From an uncultured Lachnospiraceae bacterium (GTDB lineage Bacteria > Bacillota > Clostridia > Lachnospirales > Lachnospiraceae): DNA of 40,542 bases. The notes under the pieces were generated by a model. The model saw only the letters and a list, made by a program, of their open reading frames with translations. It was not told the origin of the DNA and did no database searches. Position numbers and translations under genes: made by a program. Shown one piece after another: positions 6,205 through 18,588 of the stretch. Location: NCBI GenBank assembly GCA_946491665.1, contig CAMLYL010000017.1, positions 1 to 40,542 of the forward strand. The letters run 5' to 3'. How positions within the stretch are numbered: the stretch's first letter is position 1; every line of letters starts with the position of its first letter.

Positions 6205-9200
6205 ATGATAAATATTTTTGTTTCCAGTACGTTTAAAGATATGCACTATGAAAGGGATCTGATTCATGAAAAGGTACTTCCGCAGCTGAACAGCATGGCG
6301 GCGGAATATGGAGACAGCGTGGCTTTTTGTGATCTGCGCTGGGGAGTGGACACCAATGATTTGGACAGTGAAGAGGGGGCGAAAAAAGTATTGTCTGTCT
6401 GCCTGGATGAAATAGACAGATGCAGGCCCTATATGATTGTAATTCTGGGGGAACGCTATGGATGGATCCCGGAAGAAAGCCTGATCTCAGAAACGATTCA
6501 GGGCAGGAAGGATTTTGAACTGGATGAACTGGAAAAAAGCGTCACGGCTCTGGAGATCGAATATGGCGCGCTGAATCATCCCGGACAGCTGGAAAAGACG
6601 TTGTTTTACTACCGGGAAGCCCGGGGCCCCATGCCGGAGATCTACAGGCAGGAGGATACGGCCCACTGGGAGAAACTTCAGGAATTGAAGAAAAGGATAT
6701 GGAAGATTGCCGGCGGAAAAGTCAGAACTTATCAGGTCCACTGGGATGAAGAATCAGGACGGCCGGTGGGACAGGAACAGTTTGCACAGCTGGTAACAGA
6801 GGATATGAAAAGCCTGCTGGAGCAGGAATGGCAGAGATACAGAGAACTGTCTGATTTTGACAGAGATCAGCTGGCTCAGTGGAATATGGTACGGGAAAAG
6901 TCTGCTCAGTTTGCAGCCAGAGAAGACTTTGTGCAGAACTGCATAAAAGAACTGGATTCGGGGAAGACGCTTCTGCAGATCCGGGGCGCCGCCGGAAGCG
7001 GGAAAAGTACGGTGATGAGCAGACTGGCGGTGTGCCTCAAAGAGCAGGGGAAAACGGTTTTACCGATCTTTTGTGGTCATACAGAAATGACCGGGAGCGG
7101 CATGTCTTTGCTGCATTATCTTACATATTTTCTGGAGGAACAGACAGGAAACGATCATCTGGAGAGTGAAAAAGACTGGAATGCGGACAAATGTGTGGAA
7201 CGGCTGGCGCATATGACTGCCTGTTATGAACAATCCGGACTTCCGAACCTGTTTGTACTGATCGACGGAGCAGATCAGCTTCCGGATGATGAGATCAGAG
7301 AGCAGCTTTTGTTTGTGCCGGGAAATTTGTCCGAAAGAATGAAAGTGATACTGTCCTGTTCGGATGATATCACTCTGTCCCGGGCCAGGAAGGATGTTAT
7401 GGAGCTTGCCCCGCTGGATATGACAGAAAGAGAAGGGTTAGTGCGGGGAATGCTGAAGTTTTCCGGACGGGAACTTCCGGAGGCAGTGATTTGCCGGATG
7501 ATCAGCAAAAAGGATTCCGCTGCGCCGCTGTATCTGAATCTGATGCTTACCAGGCTGCTGATGATGAACCGGAATGACTTTGAGGAGATTACAGATCAGG
7601 GAGATGGAATCAGCGCTATTACACAGCGTCAGATCAACATCCTGGATGAAATGCCGGAGGATATGGAACAGGCGTGTGTAGAAGTGCTGCGCACTGCCGC
7701 AGAGCGGATCGGGGGTGAAATGGTCCGGGCGGCGGCTGAGTATCTTGCAGTATCCAGGCACGGACTGCGGGAACAGGATCTGGAATGTCTTGCGCAGGAA
7801 AGGAAGATTCCCTGGAACAGCCTGGATTTCTCTCTGTTTGTAAAATATATGCATGGCTTTTTCATTCAGCGAAAGGATGGCCGCTGGGACTTTTCTCATA
7901 AAAGCATCCGTCAGGGATTTTTGAGTCAGTGCACTGATCAGAAAAAACTCCATCAAAACATTTTGACTTATCTGGAGAAACTGCCAAAAAGAGATCCGGT
8001 GAGGGTTGGGGAGCTGATGTATCATTGTATCCGGGCGGATGAAAAAGGGATTTGTGTTTCCTGTATACAGGGCGATCCGAAAGGGAGTCCGGGCAGACTT
8101 GCTGCGGCCAGGGATCTGAAAGCTGTTTCTTTGGAAGACGGAGGGGAATGGCTGGTCGGGCTTTTGAGGCAGGGAGAGAACTGGGGCGCAGGAGCATCCT
8201 TCAGCTATTTTATAAATACCGAATATCGGATTGCTTTTCTGGTTTCTCTGAAAGAACTGAAAATACGGGAACGGGTACAGACTGAAAATCAGATTTACAT
8301 GGAACAGTATGTTCTGCGATTCCCGGAAAAGAAAAATAAAAGAGCATTGAGCATCTGTTACGAAAAAAACGCTAATATCTGTATGGAATACGAAGACAGA
8401 AAACATCTGGAAAAAGCAGGAGTTCTGTATGAAAAAGCGTTGGCATTGTCTGAGGAACTGGCAGAAGAAACAGAGGAGAGCAGAGCAGATCTGGCTGTGG
8501 ATCGGGGAAATCTGGCGTCTGTTTATGAAGAACTGGGGGGAAAAGAAGATCTGCAGAAGGCTCTGAAACTGCGGATATCGGCGGTTGATCTGCGAAAAGT
8601 AAATGCAGATGAGAACCCTTCCTCACGGAATATTCGGGCCTGGACCCTGGAGCTGCGAAATCTGGGTCTCCTTTACAGTAAAATGGACGGGGCGGAAAAC
8701 AGAGAACAGGGAGAGGCATATTTGAAACAGGCCTGCCGGATTCAGGAAGATCTGTGCAGCAGGGAGCGCACGCGCGAAAACCGGGACAGGCTGATCAGGC
8801 TTATGCTTTCCCTGGCAGATTATTATATTCGGACAGGAAAGCAGGAGGACATCCGGCAGGCGCAGACTCTCTGTGAGAAAGCGCTGCACATGCGTCAGGA
8901 ACTGACTGCAGAAAGAAACACGCCCGAAAGCCGAAGAGCCCTTGCACAGGCCTGCAGCAAGCTTGGATGGCTGTATCATGAAAAAGGTTCCCAGCAGAAT
9001 CTGAATCAGGCGGCTGAGTTATATCAGAAAGCATATCAGATCCGGAAGGAGATAGCAGAAGAACTTCAGACGCCCGGGAGCCGCAGAGAACTGGATGGAA
9101 TCTGCTACAGTCTGGGAAAGCTGTACAGCAGTTATCAGGGAGGAACATATTTTCAGAAAGCATGGGACTATTATCTGGAAGGGATTCAGATCACTGAACA

Positions 9201-10185
9201 GTTAAATGATGAACAGGAAACGACTGCCAGTAAAAAATCTCTCGGGATGAGCTGCCGGGCCGCCGCAGCGCTTCTTTACAGACAGGGCGGCCGGGAGAAT
9301 CTGCTGAAAGCAGTGATCTTCTGGGGGAGACGGGCAAGAGAGATTTATGAAGAGCTTGCGGAAGAACTGAATACGCCGGAGATCAGAAAAGAACTTTCCA
9401 GATGCTATGATCTTCTGGCAGTATGCTGCAGGGAGCTGGGAGATGAGAAGTATATAAAACAGGCTCTCGAATGGGGAGAAAAAGATATGAAGCTCAGCCT
9501 CAGGCTGGAACGGGAATTGAAGACGCTGGAGGCTCTGGATGACCTGGGATACACCTGCAGAAATCTGGGAGATCTTTATAAAGCCGGGCACCCATACCAG
9601 GATCTGGAAAAGGCGCTGAAATTGTATCAGAAAGCCTATGACATTTTCCGGGAAGCAGACCGCAGAAAGCAGACAACAGAAAGTATGGAAAATGTACAGA
9701 TCTGCCAGGAATGCCTGGCGGACATCTGCTTTGTGGCAGAGGGACTGACGGATGTCGATGAAGCTGTCCGAATGCAGGAAGAAGCCCTGGACACGTCACG
9801 AAAAAGGGCGGAAGCACTGAAAACAAAAGAGAGCAGGCAGGATTTGCTGCGTACATGTCTGCGAACCGGAGATCTGTATATGTGCCTTGAAAGTCCGGAA
9901 AAAGACTGGTGGGGCATGGCTCTGCGGCTGTATCGGGAGGCTGCCGGGGCCGCACTGCTGAATCAGGAGGAGAATGGAATGCAGGCGGATTATGATGATG
10001 TGGCTGCGGCGGCATCCAGACTGGCGGGGCATCCCTATGTTCCTGTTGATGAGAGAAAGCAGCATTTGTATCTGGTAAAAACTGTGGCAGGGATCGCGGC
10101 AAAGAAATGTCCGGATCCGAAATACAGCGACTGGATCAGTTTCTGTGAAAGGGAACTCAAAGAACTGGAGGAAGAAGGGCAGTAA
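6205..10185 (+). CDS. DUF4062-NTPase-TPR protein, STAND architecture (1326 aa)
   Basis: This is a large cytoplasmic three-part protein. Residues 1-140 form a DUF4062 domain: MINIFVSSTFKDMHYERD, then DLRWGVDT, then CRPYMIVILGERYGWIP. Residues 225-620 form a P-loop NTPase with Walker A GAAGSGKST (261-269), Walker B LFVLIDGADQ (about 349-358), a STAND-like SAAPLYL with P441, and a winged-helix-like DFSHKSIR (562-569). Residues 711-1258 hold about eleven degenerate TPR-like repeats of 50 residues with recurring (T)PESR, LG-LY and A-LY-KA positions. STAND proteins use such repeats as sensors and the N-terminal domain as effector; several are anti-phage systems. ATG 6205 follows GGGGGA. Codon use looks native. 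A role in defence or signalling is inference; no ligand or enzymatic effector activity can be read. Confidence 0.85.
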   Translation: MINIFVSSTFKDMHYERDLIHEKVLPQLNSMAAEYGDSVAFCDLRWGVDTNDLDSEEGAKKVLSVCLDEIDRCRPYMIVILGERYGWIPEESLISETIQGRKDFELDELEKSVTALEIEYGALNHPGQLEKTLFYYREARGPMPEIYRQEDTAHWEKLQELKKRIWKIAGGKVRTYQVHWDEESGRPVGQEQFAQLVTEDMKSLLEQEWQRYRELSDFDRDQLAQWNMVREKSAQFAAREDFVQNCIKELDSGKTLLQIRGAAGSGKSTVMSRLAVCLKEQGKTVLPIFCGHTEMTGSGMSLLHYLTYFLEEQTGNDHLESEKDWNADKCVERLAHMTACYEQSGLPNLFVLIDGADQLPDDEIREQLLFVPGNLSERMKVILSCSDDITLSRARKDVMELAPLDMTEREGLVRGMLKFSGRELPEAVICRMISKKDSAAPLYLNLMLTRLLMMNRNDFEEITDQGDGISAITQRQINILDEMPEDMEQACVEVLRTAAERIGGEMVRAAAEYLAVSRHGLREQDLECLAQERKIPWNSLDFSLFVKYMHGFFIQRKDGRWDFSHKSIRQGFLSQCTDQKKLHQNILTYLEKLPKRDPVRVGELMYHCIRADEKGICVSCIQGDPKGSPGRLAAARDLKAVSLEDGGEWLVGLLRQGENWGAGASFSYFINTEYRIAFLVSLKELKIRERVQTENQIYMEQYVLRFPEKKNKRALSICYEKNANICMEYEDRKHLEKAGVLYEKALALSEELAEETEESRADLAVDRGNLASVYEELGGKEDLQKALKLRISAVDLRKVNADENPSSRNIRAWTLELRNLGLLYSKMDGAENREQGEAYLKQACRIQEDLCSRERTRENRDRLIRLMLSLADYYIRTGKQEDIRQAQTLCEKALHMRQELTAERNTPESRRALAQACSKLGWLYHEKGSQQNLNQAAELYQKAYQIRKEIAEELQTPGSRRELDGICYSLGKLYSSYQGGTYFQKAWDYYLEGIQITEQLNDEQETTASKKSLGMSCRAAAALLYRQGGRENLLKAVIFWGRRAREIYEELAEELNTPEIRKELSRCYDLLAVCCRELGDEKYIKQALEWGEKDMKLSLRLERELKTLEALDDLGYTCRNLGDLYKAGHPYQDLEKALKLYQKAYDIFREADRRKQTTESMENVQICQECLADICFVAEGLTDVDEAVRMQEEALDTSRKRAEALKTKESRQDLLRTCLRTGDLYMCLESPEKDWWGMALRLYREAAGAALLNQEENGMQADYDDVAAAASRLAGHPYVPVDERKQHLYLVKTVAGIAAKKCPDPKYSDWISFCERELKELEEEGQ

Positions 10186-14235: not shown

Positions 14236-14312
14236 ATGATGATAAAGTATTTGCCGAAATGGAGATCTTAATTTGATATGAAGGGAAATAATTCCCTGAA
14301 CAGCAAAATTTA

Positions 14313-14341
14313 TTGGGCGTTTTGGAAAGCTGTGGTACAAT
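14313..14341 (+). promoter_or_regulatory. Candidate promoter of the ATPase/nuclease-like cassette
   Basis: TTGGGC (14313-14318) and TACAAT (14336-14341) are 17 bases apart, with a TGG extended -10. The start codon is 124 bases downstream, leaving a leader that contains repeats of GTAAAATTT at 14401 and 14416. Confidence 0.5.
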
Positions 14342-14400
14342 GTAAATCAGAACACTTATTAGAAAATCTTTCCGAAACAAGAGAACGGGCATGAGGGAAC

Positions 14401-14424
14401 GTAAAATTTACTTATGTAAAATTT
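14401..14424 (+). repeat. Tandem GTAAAATTT repeats in the cassette leader
   Basis: GTAAAATTT occurs at 14401-14409 and 14416-14424, a 15-base pitch, and is enclosed by GAACGT (14397-14402) and ACGTTC (14429-14434), which can pair. The repeats lie between the candidate promoter and the ATPase start codon. A regulator-binding or RNA hairpin role is inference. Confidence 0.45.
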
Positions 14425-14465
14425 CAGGACGTTCTGGCAAAAATAAAGTAGAGGGGTGATCAGAT

Positions 14466-15500
14466 ATGATTATAAATAAACTTAAATTGGAAAATTTTAC
14501 GGTTTTTGAAGATCAGCAAATTGAATTTGAACCGGGTATCAATGTGCTTATTGGTGAAAATGGAACTGGCAAAACACATATTTTGAAAGTTTTGTATTCT
14601 GCCTGCCAGAGCGTTGATCAAAAAGTATCATTTCCGCATAAGCTTGTTTTGACAATGCTTCCTGACGACTATAAAATTTCACGATTACTTACAAGAAAGC
14701 CTGGAAATCGTACTGGTATCATTCGTATTGTGGCCAGTGAAGCAGAGCGGGCACCGGAGAGAGTGCTGAAGGCATCATTTAATGGAAAAACAAAAAAATG
14801 GGAAGCAGATGTAACAGGAGAAGGCGGATGGGAAGAATCTTTTCCCGGCCTGAGCAGTATCTTTATTCCTGCTAAAGAAATTTTATCTAATAGCTATAAT
14901 TTGAATGCTGCAGTTGAAAAAAATAATGTCCGTTTTGATGACACATACCTAGATATTATTAATGCAGCAAAGGTTGACATCTCTGTTGGCAGAAACAGCG
15001 ATTCTAAGAATGCGATGTTGAGAAGAATTCAGCAAATGACCCATGGTACTGTAGTTTATGACACTAAAAGAGACGAATTCTATTTAAAAAACGGAAGCTC
15101 CAGGCAGGAATTTAATCTGGTTGCAGAGGGTATCCGAAAAATGGCGCTTTTATGGCAGCTCGTAAAAAACGGAACATTGGAAAAAGGTTCCATTCTTTTT
15201 TGGGATGAACCAGAAGCGAATATCAATCCCACTTATATTTCTGTTATTGTCGAAATGCTTCTTGAATTGCAGCGACAGGGGGTACAAATATTTATTTCTA
15301 CGCATGACTATATGATTGCAAGCTATTTTGAGGTAAAGAAGCAAAAAGAAGACAGAGTAATCTTCCATTCTTTATCTCACGCTGAAGGAACAGATGTTAT
15401 TTATTATGATAAATCAAAAACCTTTGATAATTTAAAAAATAACGTTATTATAACTGCATTTAATAACCTGTTGAATGAGATTTATGATCTGGGAGTGTGA
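14466..15500 (+). CDS. AAA/ABC-type ATPase, candidate defence gene
   Basis: The product (344 residues) is a RecF/SMC-like ATPase of the AAA_15/AAA_21 type, soluble, without a long coiled coil. It begins MIINKLKLENFTVFEDQQIEF, typical of the group. Walker A is GENGTGKT (30-37). A signature-like region VAEGIRKMALLW lies near 220. Walker B is SILFWDEPEAN with D247-E248. The switch histidine is H280 in FISTHD. No OLD-type Toprim domain follows. It ends 6 bases before the next gene, so the two form an operon. The gene is clearly AT-rich (14 G/C in the 60 bases 14461-14520), unlike mazG and rib genes on either side, which suggests transfer. Such ATPases partner with nucleases in several anti-phage systems. 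That role here is inferred from layout. Confidence 0.82.
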   Translation: MIINKLKLENFTVFEDQQIEFEPGINVLIGENGTGKTHILKVLYSACQSVDQKVSFPHKLVLTMLPDDYKISRLLTRKPGNRTGIIRIVASEAERAPERVLKASFNGKTKKWEADVTGEGGWEESFPGLSSIFIPAKEILSNSYNLNAAVEKNNVRFDDTYLDIINAAKVDISVGRNSDSKNAMLRRIQQMTHGTVVYDTKRDEFYLKNGSSRQEFNLVAEGIRKMALLWQLVKNGTLEKGSILFWDEPEANINPTYISVIVEMLLELQRQGVQIFISTHDYMIASYFEVKKQKEDRVIFHSLSHAEGTDVIYYDKSKTFDNLKNNVIITAFNNLLNEIYDLGV

Positions 15501-15506
15501 GAGTAG

Positions 15507-16046
15507 ATGTCTATAGTGTATATAGAAGAGAATGGCCAATACTCTTTGGATTGTTCGAAAGCAATTTGGTCAACAGATAGAATCCACAGTTATTATCAGG
15601 ATTCCGACCATCAGTATGGATATATTGGATTTTTATGTGATGTGGATTTTGTTATAGAAAATGAAAAAAATATTTTGTTAGTGGAATATAAAAATGCCAG
15701 TATTCCCGGAGCGGCAAATCCGAATGCATTTCGGCCGGAAAATGATAATAAGCTGGATAATGTGGCGAAGAAATTTTATGATTCATTGCACTGGCTCTAT
15801 TTAAATGGAAAAGACAAGCCTAAAAAGTATATCTATATTTTAGAGTATCCAACGGGAAATTCTTCTTCCAGATTAATGATCCGGAATAAACTGAAAAAGA
15901 AGCTTCCGTTTGTGTTGCAGGAAAATTTTGCCACTATGGATCGTAAAATAATTGATGAGGTAAAAGTGGTCGATATTTCAGAGTGGAATGCAGATGAAGA
16001 ACTTGGAATATACCCGCTTCAGCCAGTTTCATCATCGACTACATAA
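15507..16046 (+). CDS. Small PD-(D/E)XK nuclease-like partner protein
   Basis: The product (179 residues) is not a family I can name. GFLCDVDFVIENEKNILLVEYKN at about 41-63 has the spacing of a PD-(D/E)XK core: a candidate D47 on one strand, a turn, then a hydrophobic strand ending E60-Y61-K62. A serine/polar tail closes the protein. There is no signal peptide or membrane segment. It starts 6 bases after the ATPase stop, with GGGAGTG upstream, and shares the low G+C of the ATPase gene, so the two probably entered together and act together. The nuclease reading rests on a short motif. It could instead be an inactive relative or a substrate-recognition subunit. Confidence 0.6.
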   Translation: MSIVYIEENGQYSLDCSKAIWSTDRIHSYYQDSDHQYGYIGFLCDVDFVIENEKNILLVEYKNASIPGAANPNAFRPENDNKLDNVAKKFYDSLHWLYLNGKDKPKKYIYILEYPTGNSSSRLMIRNKLKKKLPFVLQENFATMDRKIIDEVKVVDISEWNADEELGIYPLQPVSSSTT

Positions 16047-16053
16047 GGAGCGT

Positions 16054-16137
16054 ATGAAGGATGGCTATTCCCAAATTAAGGACGAAGCGCTTGCTCATGA
16101 AGGTGCTTCGCGAAGCACCATTTCAGATATAATATGA
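16054..16137 (+). CDS. Short reading frame after the cassette (27 aa), doubtful
   Basis: An ATG at 16054 with AAGGAG (16045-16050) upstream opens 27 codons ending ASRSTISDII. The ending resembles the recognition helix of a helix-turn-helix protein, so it may be the worn remnant of a regulator or recombinase. It contains the palindrome at 16102-16119. The SD spacing is short (3 bases). It may not be translated. Confidence 0.25.
   Translation: MKDGYSQIKDEALAHEGASRSTISDII
16102..16119. repeat. Perfect 18-bp palindrome
   Basis: GGTGCTTCG (16102-16110) is followed directly by its reverse complement CGAAGCACC (16111-16119). No T-run follows on either strand, so it is unlikely to be an intrinsic terminator. 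It marks the right end of the AT-rich cassette. Confidence 0.6.
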
Positions 16138-17090: not shown

Positions 17091-17256
17091 GAAGAACTTC
17101 AGGGCAGGGTGACTGGCCTTCGGACATGAAATACCCGAACGGCGAGAAGTCCCGACCGGCGGTACAGCCCGCGAGCGCGCAAGCGTTGATCTGGTGGATC
17201 GCATCATGCAGATGTGAGTATTCCAGAGCCGACAGTATAGTCTGGATGGAAGAAGC
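17091..17256 (+). promoter_or_regulatory. FMN riboswitch (RFN element), with extended P2 and P5 loops
   Basis: The element binds FMN and turns off riboflavin synthesis genes. Conserved blocks are AGGGCAGGGTGA (17101-17112), TCCCGACCGGCGGTACAG (17150-17167), ATCTGGTG (17189-17196), TTCCAGAGCCGACAGTATAG (17221-17240) and TCTGGATGGAAGAAG (17241-17255). P1 pairs CTTC (17097-17100) with GAAG near 17252. P2 (GGG 17107-17109 with CCC 17151-17153) normally has a 6-base loop but here encloses about 40 bases with its own helix (17116-17123 with 17135-17143). P5 also carries an extra hairpin (17200-17205 with 17211-17216). The downstream terminator at 17316 gives a transcription-attenuation switch. Confidence 0.95.
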
Positions 17257-17315
17257 ATTTTATTTTGATTTTTATTTTTATATGGAAATTTTAAATGTGA
17301 ATGCATAAAAACAGG

Positions 17316-17478: not shown

Positions 17479-18588
17479 ATGACAAAAGAAGATTACATGC
17501 GCAGAGCGCTGGAACTGGCCCGGCAGGGATCCGGGTATACCAACCCCAATCCCATGGTAGGGTGTGTGGTGGTAAAGGACGGCCGGATCATCAGCGAGGG
17601 ATACCATGAACGATATGGTGAATTTCATGCAGAGCGGAACGCGCTGACCCGCTGTACGGGAGATCCGACGGGGGCAGATCTGTATGTGACGCTGGAGCCC
17701 TGCTGTCACTATGGAAAGACGCCGCCCTGTACAGAGATTATTATTGAGAAAAAAATTGCCCGGGTGTTTGTGGGAAGCATGGATTCCAACCCGCTGGTTG
17801 CCGGAAAAGGAGTGGGGATCCTTCAGGATGCGGGAATTGCGGTGGAGACCGGGATTCTGGAAGGGGAATGCAGGAAGCTGAATGAAGTGTTTTATCATTA
17901 TATGGAAACGGGACTTCCCTTTGTGGTGATGAAATATGCCATGTCCCTGGATGGGAAAATTGCCTGCGCCACGGGAGATTCCAAATGGGTGACCGGAGAA
18001 ACTGCCCGGAACCATGTGCATCAGCTCCGGAAGCAGTACATGGGAATTATGGTGGGAATCGGAACGGTTCTGGCTGATGATCCCATGCTGAACTGCCGGG
18101 TGGCTGAGGGGGCGGATCCGGTACGGATTGTCTGCGACAGCCATCTGCGGATTCCGCAGGAATGTCAGCTGGTGCGCACCGCTCATGAAATACCGACAAT
18201 TGTTGCCTGTACAGAAAATACATTTGAGTCTCCGGGGCAGCAGGACAGGATCCGCAGTCTCAGAGACGCCGGCGTGCAGATTATACCCACCAGCGGCGCT
18301 CATGGGGTGAATCTGAGGGCGCTGATGAAGGAACTTGGAGCAAAAAAGATTGACAGTGTACTGCTTGAGGGCGGAGGAACCCTGAATTCGTCGGCGCTCA
18401 GCGAGGGAATTGTCAGTAAAGTCTGCGCCTATATTTCCGGCAGGCTGATCGGCGGCATGGATGCTCCGACACCGGTTTCCGGGGTGGGAGCGAACCGGAT
18501 GTCTGAGGCGGTTCATCTGAAGGATATGCAGATTGAATGTCTTGAAGAAGATTTTCTGATCAGCGGATATCCGGTATATGAAGAATAG
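17479..18588 (+). CDS. ribD: Riboflavin biosynthesis deaminase/reductase RibD
   Basis: The product (369 residues) is the bifunctional enzyme for steps two and three from GTP: deamination of the pyrimidine intermediate, then NADPH reduction of its ribose. The deaminase domain (1-145) has HAERNAL with H50 and E52, and PCCHYGKTPPC with C75 and C84, the complete zinc site. The reductase domain (about 150-365) begins FVVMKYAMSLDGKIACATGDSKWVTG and contains EGGGTLN. An upstream in-frame ATG at 17452 is rejected: ATG 17479 has GAGGAAGG seven bases before it and gives the standard N-terminus. It is the first gene of the operon and sits under the FMN riboswitch. Confidence 0.97.
   Translation: MTKEDYMRRALELARQGSGYTNPNPMVGCVVVKDGRIISEGYHERYGEFHAERNALTRCTGDPTGADLYVTLEPCCHYGKTPPCTEIIIEKKIARVFVGSMDSNPLVAGKGVGILQDAGIAVETGILEGECRKLNEVFYHYMETGLPFVVMKYAMSLDGKIACATGDSKWVTGETARNHVHQLRKQYMGIMVGIGTVLADDPMLNCRVAEGADPVRIVCDSHLRIPQECQLVRTAHEIPTIVACTENTFESPGQQDRIRSLRDAGVQIIPTSGAHGVNLRALMKELGAKKIDSVLLEGGGTLNSSALSEGIVSKVCAYISGRLIGGMDAPTPVSGVGANRMSEAVHLKDMQIECLEEDFLISGYPVYEE

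Follow-up and report, generated by a model that had tools for sequence, protein, structure and literature searches.

The window analysed here is a stretch of 40,542 nucleotides from an uncultured Lachnospiraceae bacterium (positions 1 to 40,542 of contig CAMLYL010000017.1), and its subject is a pair of adjacent genes for an ATPase and a small, putatively nucleolytic protein. The pair is of the HEC-02 type, and it is probably a defence module that formerly belonged to a type I BREX operon and stayed in place while the remainder of that operon disappeared from this site. The ancestral place of the module would have been directly after pglX, the methyltransferase gene, and before the Schlafen/AlbA_2 gene of such an operon. 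At the window site, nothing else of the operon seems to have survived intact. A previous description made from the letters of the DNA (the sequence-only reading) had presented the two genes as an uncharacterised defence module. As a kind, the module is not uncharacterised, because it matches HEC-02 in PADLOC and because pairs of OLD-type ABC ATPases and PD-(D/E)XK nucleases are already in print (PMC12839542). The addition made here is the repeated occurrence of an intact pair in an apparent BREX wreck.

Remnants on both sides of the pair

BREX-like remnants lie directly on both sides of the pair, a pglX tail upstream and the debris of an SLFN_AlbA_2 gene downstream (Table 1). The upstream frame stops 14 bases before the start codon of the ATPase, and its last 12 codons are identical at 12 of 12 positions to the C-terminus of a protein at locus L125, which is PglX by PADLOC (1423 bits). 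In 30 dinucleotide shuffles of the whole window, the best agreement with the same PglX end was 7 of 12. The hidden Markov model (HMM) of the PglX C-terminus matches the upstream piece at an E-value of 3e-4. Downstream, the debris reads MKDGYSQIKDEALAHEGASRSTISDII-stop, in which two short pieces of one 485-residue protein of locus L124 are run together, corresponding to about residues 330-344 (11 of 15 identical) and 470-477 (8 of 8). The debris is recognized by tblastn over the window at E 0.003, and its DNA is 79.5% identical over 44 bp to locus L011 (E 3.6e-5). The L124 protein combines SLFN_AlbA_2 and HATPase_c_4 domains and is encoded between pglX and pglZ of a BREX operon. Such a composition fits the Schlafen-histidine-kinase genes for which a 2026 survey (PMC12839542) reports, in at least 1017 taxa, a close linkage to BREX or BREX-related systems. 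The downstream debris also contains a perfect 18-base palindrome, GGTGCTTCGCGAAGCACC, at 16102-16119.

Over 66 bp, the probable leader of the former operon shares 82% identity with the sequence directly upstream of the brxA start at L011, and over 61 bp it shares 74% with a stretch at L009 located upstream of the helix-turn-helix (HTH) gene that precedes HEC-02 and brxA. It contains TTGGGC and TACAAT separated by 17 bases (14313-14341), a possible promoter that the automatic promoter scan did not list; judged by this motif, the leader may have promoter activity. A remnant of an HTH end (LSETRER, E 0.13) is suggestive only and is not counted among the parts. At the DNA level, L009 and L010 resemble the window over the pair and a further 34 and 14 bases upstream, respectively, and the similarity ends at the stop codon of the nuclease gene. 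In the rest of the window's own genome (84% complete, 171 contigs), no BrxA or PglX match was found, while brxC, pglZ and brxL were not searched.

Table 1. The gene pair and the parts of the former operon around it
Feature	Position	Strand	Basis
Probable leader of former BREX operon	14286..14350	+	DNA similarity to L011 and L009; promoter inferred
pglX (BREX methyltransferase) remnant, last 12 codons and stop, YVKFQDVLAKIK-stop	14413..14451	+	Identity to PglX C-terminus
HEC-02A-type ATPase (OLD/SMC-like ABC ATPase), 344 residues	14466..15500	+	PADLOC PDLC04213
HEC-02B-type putative PD-(D/E)XK nuclease, 179 residues	15507..16046	+	PADLOC PDLC04226
Schlafen/AlbA_2 + HATPase gene debris of BREX operon	16054..16137	+	Two peptide pieces, tblastn, DNA similarity

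Relatives in standing and apparently lost BREX operons

Relatives of the pair were compared at 37 distinct HEC-02 loci (26 and 13, minus two that repeat the L009 and L013 contigs), including L168, where only the small protein is present at a contig end. Ten of them have a BREX context: five with standing genes (L009, L017, L090, L091 and L092) and five with remnants (the window, L011, L012, L079 and L175). The remaining 27 have neither with the queries used, and since the query set was limited, other BREX types may have been missed among them. A methylase gene on the other strand at L096 (a weak PglX-type match), an upstream AlbA_2-type match at L170 and a brxC-type match at L014 (E 0.019) were not counted as BREX context. 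Examples of pairs without BREX matches by these queries are those beside AbiE at L016, on plasmids L093-L095 and L097, and at L014. The small-protein gene lies directly beside the ATPase gene in 23 of 26 loci, the exceptions being L096, L098 and the partial L005. A fused ATPase-nuclease protein was considered for the first two and set aside, as their long open reading frames (ORFs) do not have the appearance of a fusion.

Among the standing operons, L009 carries the pair just ahead of brxA, brxB, brxC and pglX, the last of which runs off the examined stretch before pglZ or brxL. On plasmids L090 (by annotation) and L091 (by similarity and PADLOC), the pair is located between brxC and pglX, and on plasmid L092 it follows the pglX of a type 2 BREX. 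At L017, its neighbours on either side are a pglX-type and a brxH-type gene, and HEC-01 is present in the same BREX operon. L017 and the three plasmid loci are remote relatives, with ATPase identities of 29-37%. HEC-02B was absent from the 12 BREX regions reached via BrxA (12 of the 18 BrxA matches obtained in 17 of 150 genomes). A different pair was observed at L127 (5839-7829), where a 451-residue ATPase of the same broad kind and a 212-residue partner are located between brxC and pglX; neither matches PADLOC at E <= 1e-30, and the partner has no Pfam match at E <= 0.001.

At the loci with remnants, the pair is accompanied by different fragments. At L011, the start of brxA runs directly into the final 37-40 pglX codons, followed by the intact pair and a broken Schlafen-type gene. 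At L079, from another family of the class, the order is the end of pglX, the intact pair and the start of pglZ (HMM E 4.5e-9), and at L175 the intact pair is preceded, in this order, by a full-length brxA ORF, a truncated brxB and the final 178 codons of pglX. The breakpoints of these three loci differ from those of the window, and each locus keeps the intact pair directly after the pglX remnant. The pair of L012 is decayed, with a truncated ATPase gene beside a truncated small-protein gene, and its pglX tail was recognized by DNA similarity to L011 (61 bp). When the PglX C-terminus HMM was run on the 700 bases upstream of 35 loci (without L005 and L168, and with some ATPase starts extrapolated for cutting the flanks), four matched at E <= 0.01: L175, L011, the window and L079. 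Only two such matches occurred in 310 control pieces of the same loci, both within the standing pglX of L090, and the best match in 101,233 bases of same-genus contigs had E 0.26.

Intact pairs persist without the BREX core genes, and therefore the module probably works without BREX. A dependent accessory, such as an extra nuclease that is now a dying leftover awaiting deletion, would agree with the embedding of the pair in BREX operons at several loci, with the debris around the window's pair and with the existence of decayed copies (L012, L013 and small proteins interrupted by stops in three genomes). However, this explanation is improbable given the intact pairs at four BREX-remnant loci, the 27 of 37 loci without BREX matches by the queries used, and the low ratio of nonsynonymous to synonymous substitution rates (dN/dS). 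In pairwise comparisons with L009, L010 and L011, the ATPase has a dN/dS of 0.072-0.086 and the small protein one of 0.085-0.146, with dS at 0.46-0.86, which indicates that the pair has been kept as protein. A further comparison is provided by BrxU, a restriction gene between brxC and pglX of the pEFER BREX, which protects without pglX and alone (PMC8565348). BrxU differs in kind, being a lone GmrSD-type protein (DUF262/DUF1524), but its protection alone makes an independent role of the HEC-02 pair plausible. It is possible, with a chance somewhat short of even, that HEC-02 serves as an autonomous second line in BREX operons and repeatedly survives their loss, acting by itself in abortive or restriction defence under the old BREX leader.

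Several points weigh against the origin from a lost BREX operon. The tail region of PglX is also covered by PADLOC models for type IIG and DrmMI methylases, so that the 12 codons alone are insufficient proof of BREX, and the assignment rests on the context given by L011, L079 and L175 as well as by the window. At L012, the HMM match to the pglX tail is weak (E 0.89). The loci were found by a search for HEC-02, and thus only the relics that retained it are visible. Furthermore, part of the history recorded in dN/dS may predate the loss of BREX.

Loci where the BREX core is gone and the pair intact are natural test cases, for which BREX-independent protection is predicted. They illustrate how a small defence module can be orphaned where a large system once stood. 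Because of such orphaning at lost BREX sites, other orphan ATPase-nuclease pairs may also be relics, and their flanks are worth reading. Within the genus of the window, contig 38 of genome G009, contig 110 of G006 and contig 49 of G017 hold one open pglX-like frame and two pglX-like matches with stops, so the decay of BREX is not confined to the window's genome.

The two proteins and known defence systems

Both components of HEC-02 are present, as the A- and B-type profiles are matched nearly end to end by adjacent genes. The HEC-02A profile covers residues 1-341 of the ATPase (E 9.5e-122), and the HEC-02B profile covers residues 1-175 of the small protein (E 2e-74). Beyond general ATPase-domain families, the matches spanning the proteins are candidate defence families, in agreement with the sequence-only reading, which had proposed a defence-type ATPase with a PD-(D/E)XK-like partner. 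The two ORFs, 6 bases apart, and their motifs are present where that reading had placed them, and the motifs are conserved in alignments of 23 sequences of each protein, the window's own among them. In the ATPase, these are GENGTGKT at residues 30-37 (including K36), WDEPEAN at 246-252 and STHD at 278-281. We take residues 30-37 to be the Walker A motif, AEGIRK at 220-225 a signature-like motif, 243-248 the Walker B motif and H280 the histidine of the H-switch. In the ATPase alignment, D247, E248 and H280 never vary, and conservation of G35 and K36 is at least 90%. The structures closest to the ATPase model are the heads of SMC, Rad50 and PtuA.

The small protein was aligned with its relatives (23 sequences with the window's own, two of them fragments). 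E60 and K89 are conserved in 23 of 23 and K62 in 22 (R in L092), and position 47 is always acidic (D in 21, E in 2). In the AF2 model (pLDDT 66.5, pTM 0.69), D47 is placed just before a strand starting at 48, E60-x-K62 in the strand 56-63 and K89 in the following helix 81-99. The pattern of PD-(D/E)XK enzymes, an acidic residue followed by (D/E)-x-K on neighbouring strands, is therefore present and conserved in 21-23 of 23 sequences, which supports a PD-(D/E)XK nuclease. The restriction-endonuclease-like fold that had been expected receives some support: motif conservation and weak profile matches of single relatives, one to Pfam NERD (E 7e-5) and one to pPIWI_RE_REase (E 0.012), speak for it, whereas fold searches with the model gave weak matches only. 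A structural or inactive restriction-endonuclease-like sensor would be compatible with these weak fold matches and with the R of L092, but has a low probability in view of the same two Pfam matches and of the conservation of E60, K62, K89 and the acidic position 47. A match to Pfam DUF6661 (best E 3.3e-49), which has no assigned function, was obtained with two of the 23 small proteins. A search of viral structures gave nothing at E <= 0.001 (best 6.4e-3), and the sole match of a PDB sequence search was a designed repeat protein (E 0.012). A profile of the small protein (A3) has three PDB matches at E 0.75-1.6; among them is archaeal ST1444, presumably a Holliday-junction resolvase.

By analogy, the pair most likely represents an ATPase-nuclease module akin to Septu and PARIS that acts independently of BREX. 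In such a mechanism, an ATP-bound oligomeric ATPase would act as a sensor or clamp holding the nuclease inactive. A phage signal would change the ATP state of the ATPase, by which the nuclease would be freed or activated. The freed nuclease may cut nucleic acid, either DNA or, as in Septu and PARIS, tRNA. This cleavage would halt the infection, probably with some harm to the cell itself.

Both model systems differ from the pair in their partner proteins. In Septu, PtuB is an HNH nuclease, unlike the PD-(D/E)XK-like partner found here, and PtuA chains of 370-550 residues are longer than the window's ATPase. Septu depends on the motifs of its ATPase as well as on those of its nuclease, and the RNA that it cuts is tRNA-Tyr (PMC13096335). 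Septu membership was rejected, as no HNH family is among the five Pfam families matched by the 23 members (E <= 0.1) and PADLOC gives HEC-02 only. PARIS also combines an OLD-type ATPase with an effector nuclease and also occurs in BREX operons (PMC12839542). Its AriB is a TOPRIM/DUF4435 protein, in contrast, and PARIS membership was rejected because none of the 23 small proteins matches such a family and PADLOC again gives HEC-02 alone. The sequence-only reading had described the partner as unlike the usual HNH, DUF4435 or RloB types.

Close published counterparts are found in the 2026 survey, which states that BREX operons carry many extra nuclease genes and proposes them, including OLD-type ABC ATPases paired with PD-(D/E)XK nucleases, as backup effectors (PMC12839542). 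These pairs share with the present one the two kinds of protein and the operon setting, as at L009, L017 and L090-L092. They are treated there as backup effectors of a standing BREX, and persistence after BREX loss was not found in the available text. The proposed backup role bears on another explanation, a PARIS-like guard of BREX, in which the ATPase would sense an Ocr-like phage protein that inhibits BREX or restriction and would release the nuclease, aborting the infection. The AriA model indeed matches the ATPase (E 2e-19), but Pfam AAA_21, a general ATPase domain, covers exactly that span, and a TOPRIM/DUF4435 partner is missing; a guard role is accordingly rather unlikely.

HEC-02 is reportedly one of the candidates of a 2024 preprint by Payne et al., first found embedded in an Hma system. 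The window's pair matches both HEC-02 profiles and sits in debris that looks like BREX. Within the library searched, the name HEC-02 returned no paper on the system, and a search on BREX remnants with embedded genes returned none on the topic, judged by title and the start of the abstract. The Payne preprint is cited in PMC12988326 and PMC13092281, and the former states that several Hma-embedded candidates, HEC-06 among them, have shown antiviral activity.

Distribution and surroundings of the pair

The small protein is rare, patchy and sometimes broken. It occurs in two of 98 genomes, the window's own and G064 (a partial match), and with a profile of 11 members it was found in 24 of 397 family genomes (E <= 0.001). 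Eleven of these 24, the window's included, match at E < 1e-17, three at about 1e-8 to 1e-10 and ten at 6e-5 or weaker; a stop lies inside the match in three of the first eleven. Most genomes with G labels are fragmented draft assemblies. Within the genus, represented by 20 genomes, only the window's own holds the small protein, and the other 19 are without a match, so the presence and absence between strains that had been anticipated is seen. A selfish pair similar to a toxin-antitoxin unit, maintained by addiction instead of phage defence, could account for two genes with a nuclease-like second member that persist where the operon is lost. Nevertheless, the broken small proteins in three of 11 genomes and the truncated pair of L012 imply that loss is tolerated, which together with the repeated association with defence genes makes addiction hardly likely.

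The nearest named relatives of the pair are from uncultured Lachnospiraceae, uncultured Eubacteriales and Hungatella sp. At L166, L167, L169 and L171, all of the family Lachnospiraceae, the small protein or parts of it are 45-50% identical to the window's and the ATPase only 35-38%, whereas at L079, L014 and L170 the ATPase is the better conserved of the two. Owing to these opposed identities, the two genes may be exchanged separately. In phage and plasmid collections, the ATPase has remote matches only (two phage-labelled and ten plasmid records, all below 60% identity), and the small protein gave zero tblastn matches in the phage collection, the plasmid collection and viral_contigs. Small-protein genes nevertheless adjoin all three ATPase relatives from viral_contigs (L016-L018). 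Carriage by phages or plasmids was set aside on the basis of these searches.

The AT-richness noted from the sequence was confirmed, with a GC content of 35.9% for the ATPase gene and 35.0% for the small-protein gene (30% and 33% at third codon positions) against 47.4% in the window, 52% in mazG, 45% in merR and 50-54% in the rib genes. The modules of the relatives are also low in GC: L009 36.3%, L010 36.1% and L011 34.7%, compared with 47.3%, 47.1% and 57.1% in their surroundings. Low GC is thus a property that travels with the module and not one of the window only. A position between housekeeping genes is an incomplete description of the site, because the pair stands in BREX-like debris, and mazG is no fixed landmark (matched in two of the 20 genus genomes, the window's own included). 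No clean empty site was found: in G007, of the same genus, the gene after the closely matching mazG encodes a low-molecular-weight phosphatase, and the differences extend further through the region.

At L124, two copies of a spoVT-like regulator gene (31-564 and 18008-18523) flank the BREX operon like a direct repeat, the first copy being confirmed by Pfam SpoVT_C. DNA similar to the window's own spoVT-like gene is also found directly upstream of the BREX relic of L011, and a spoVT-like gene may be the sign of a BREX landing site. The window also contains a flavin mononucleotide (FMN) riboswitch upstream of the rib operon, at 17091-17261 on the plus strand (RF00050, 80.1 bits). A possible second immune-type gene lies 4 kb upstream of the pair (6205-10185, plus strand); it encodes a 1326-residue protein with DUF4062, a NACHT/STAND-type NTPase and TPR repeats, with relatives of 42-46% identity on contigs 41 and 2 of the same genome and one of 44% in G006.
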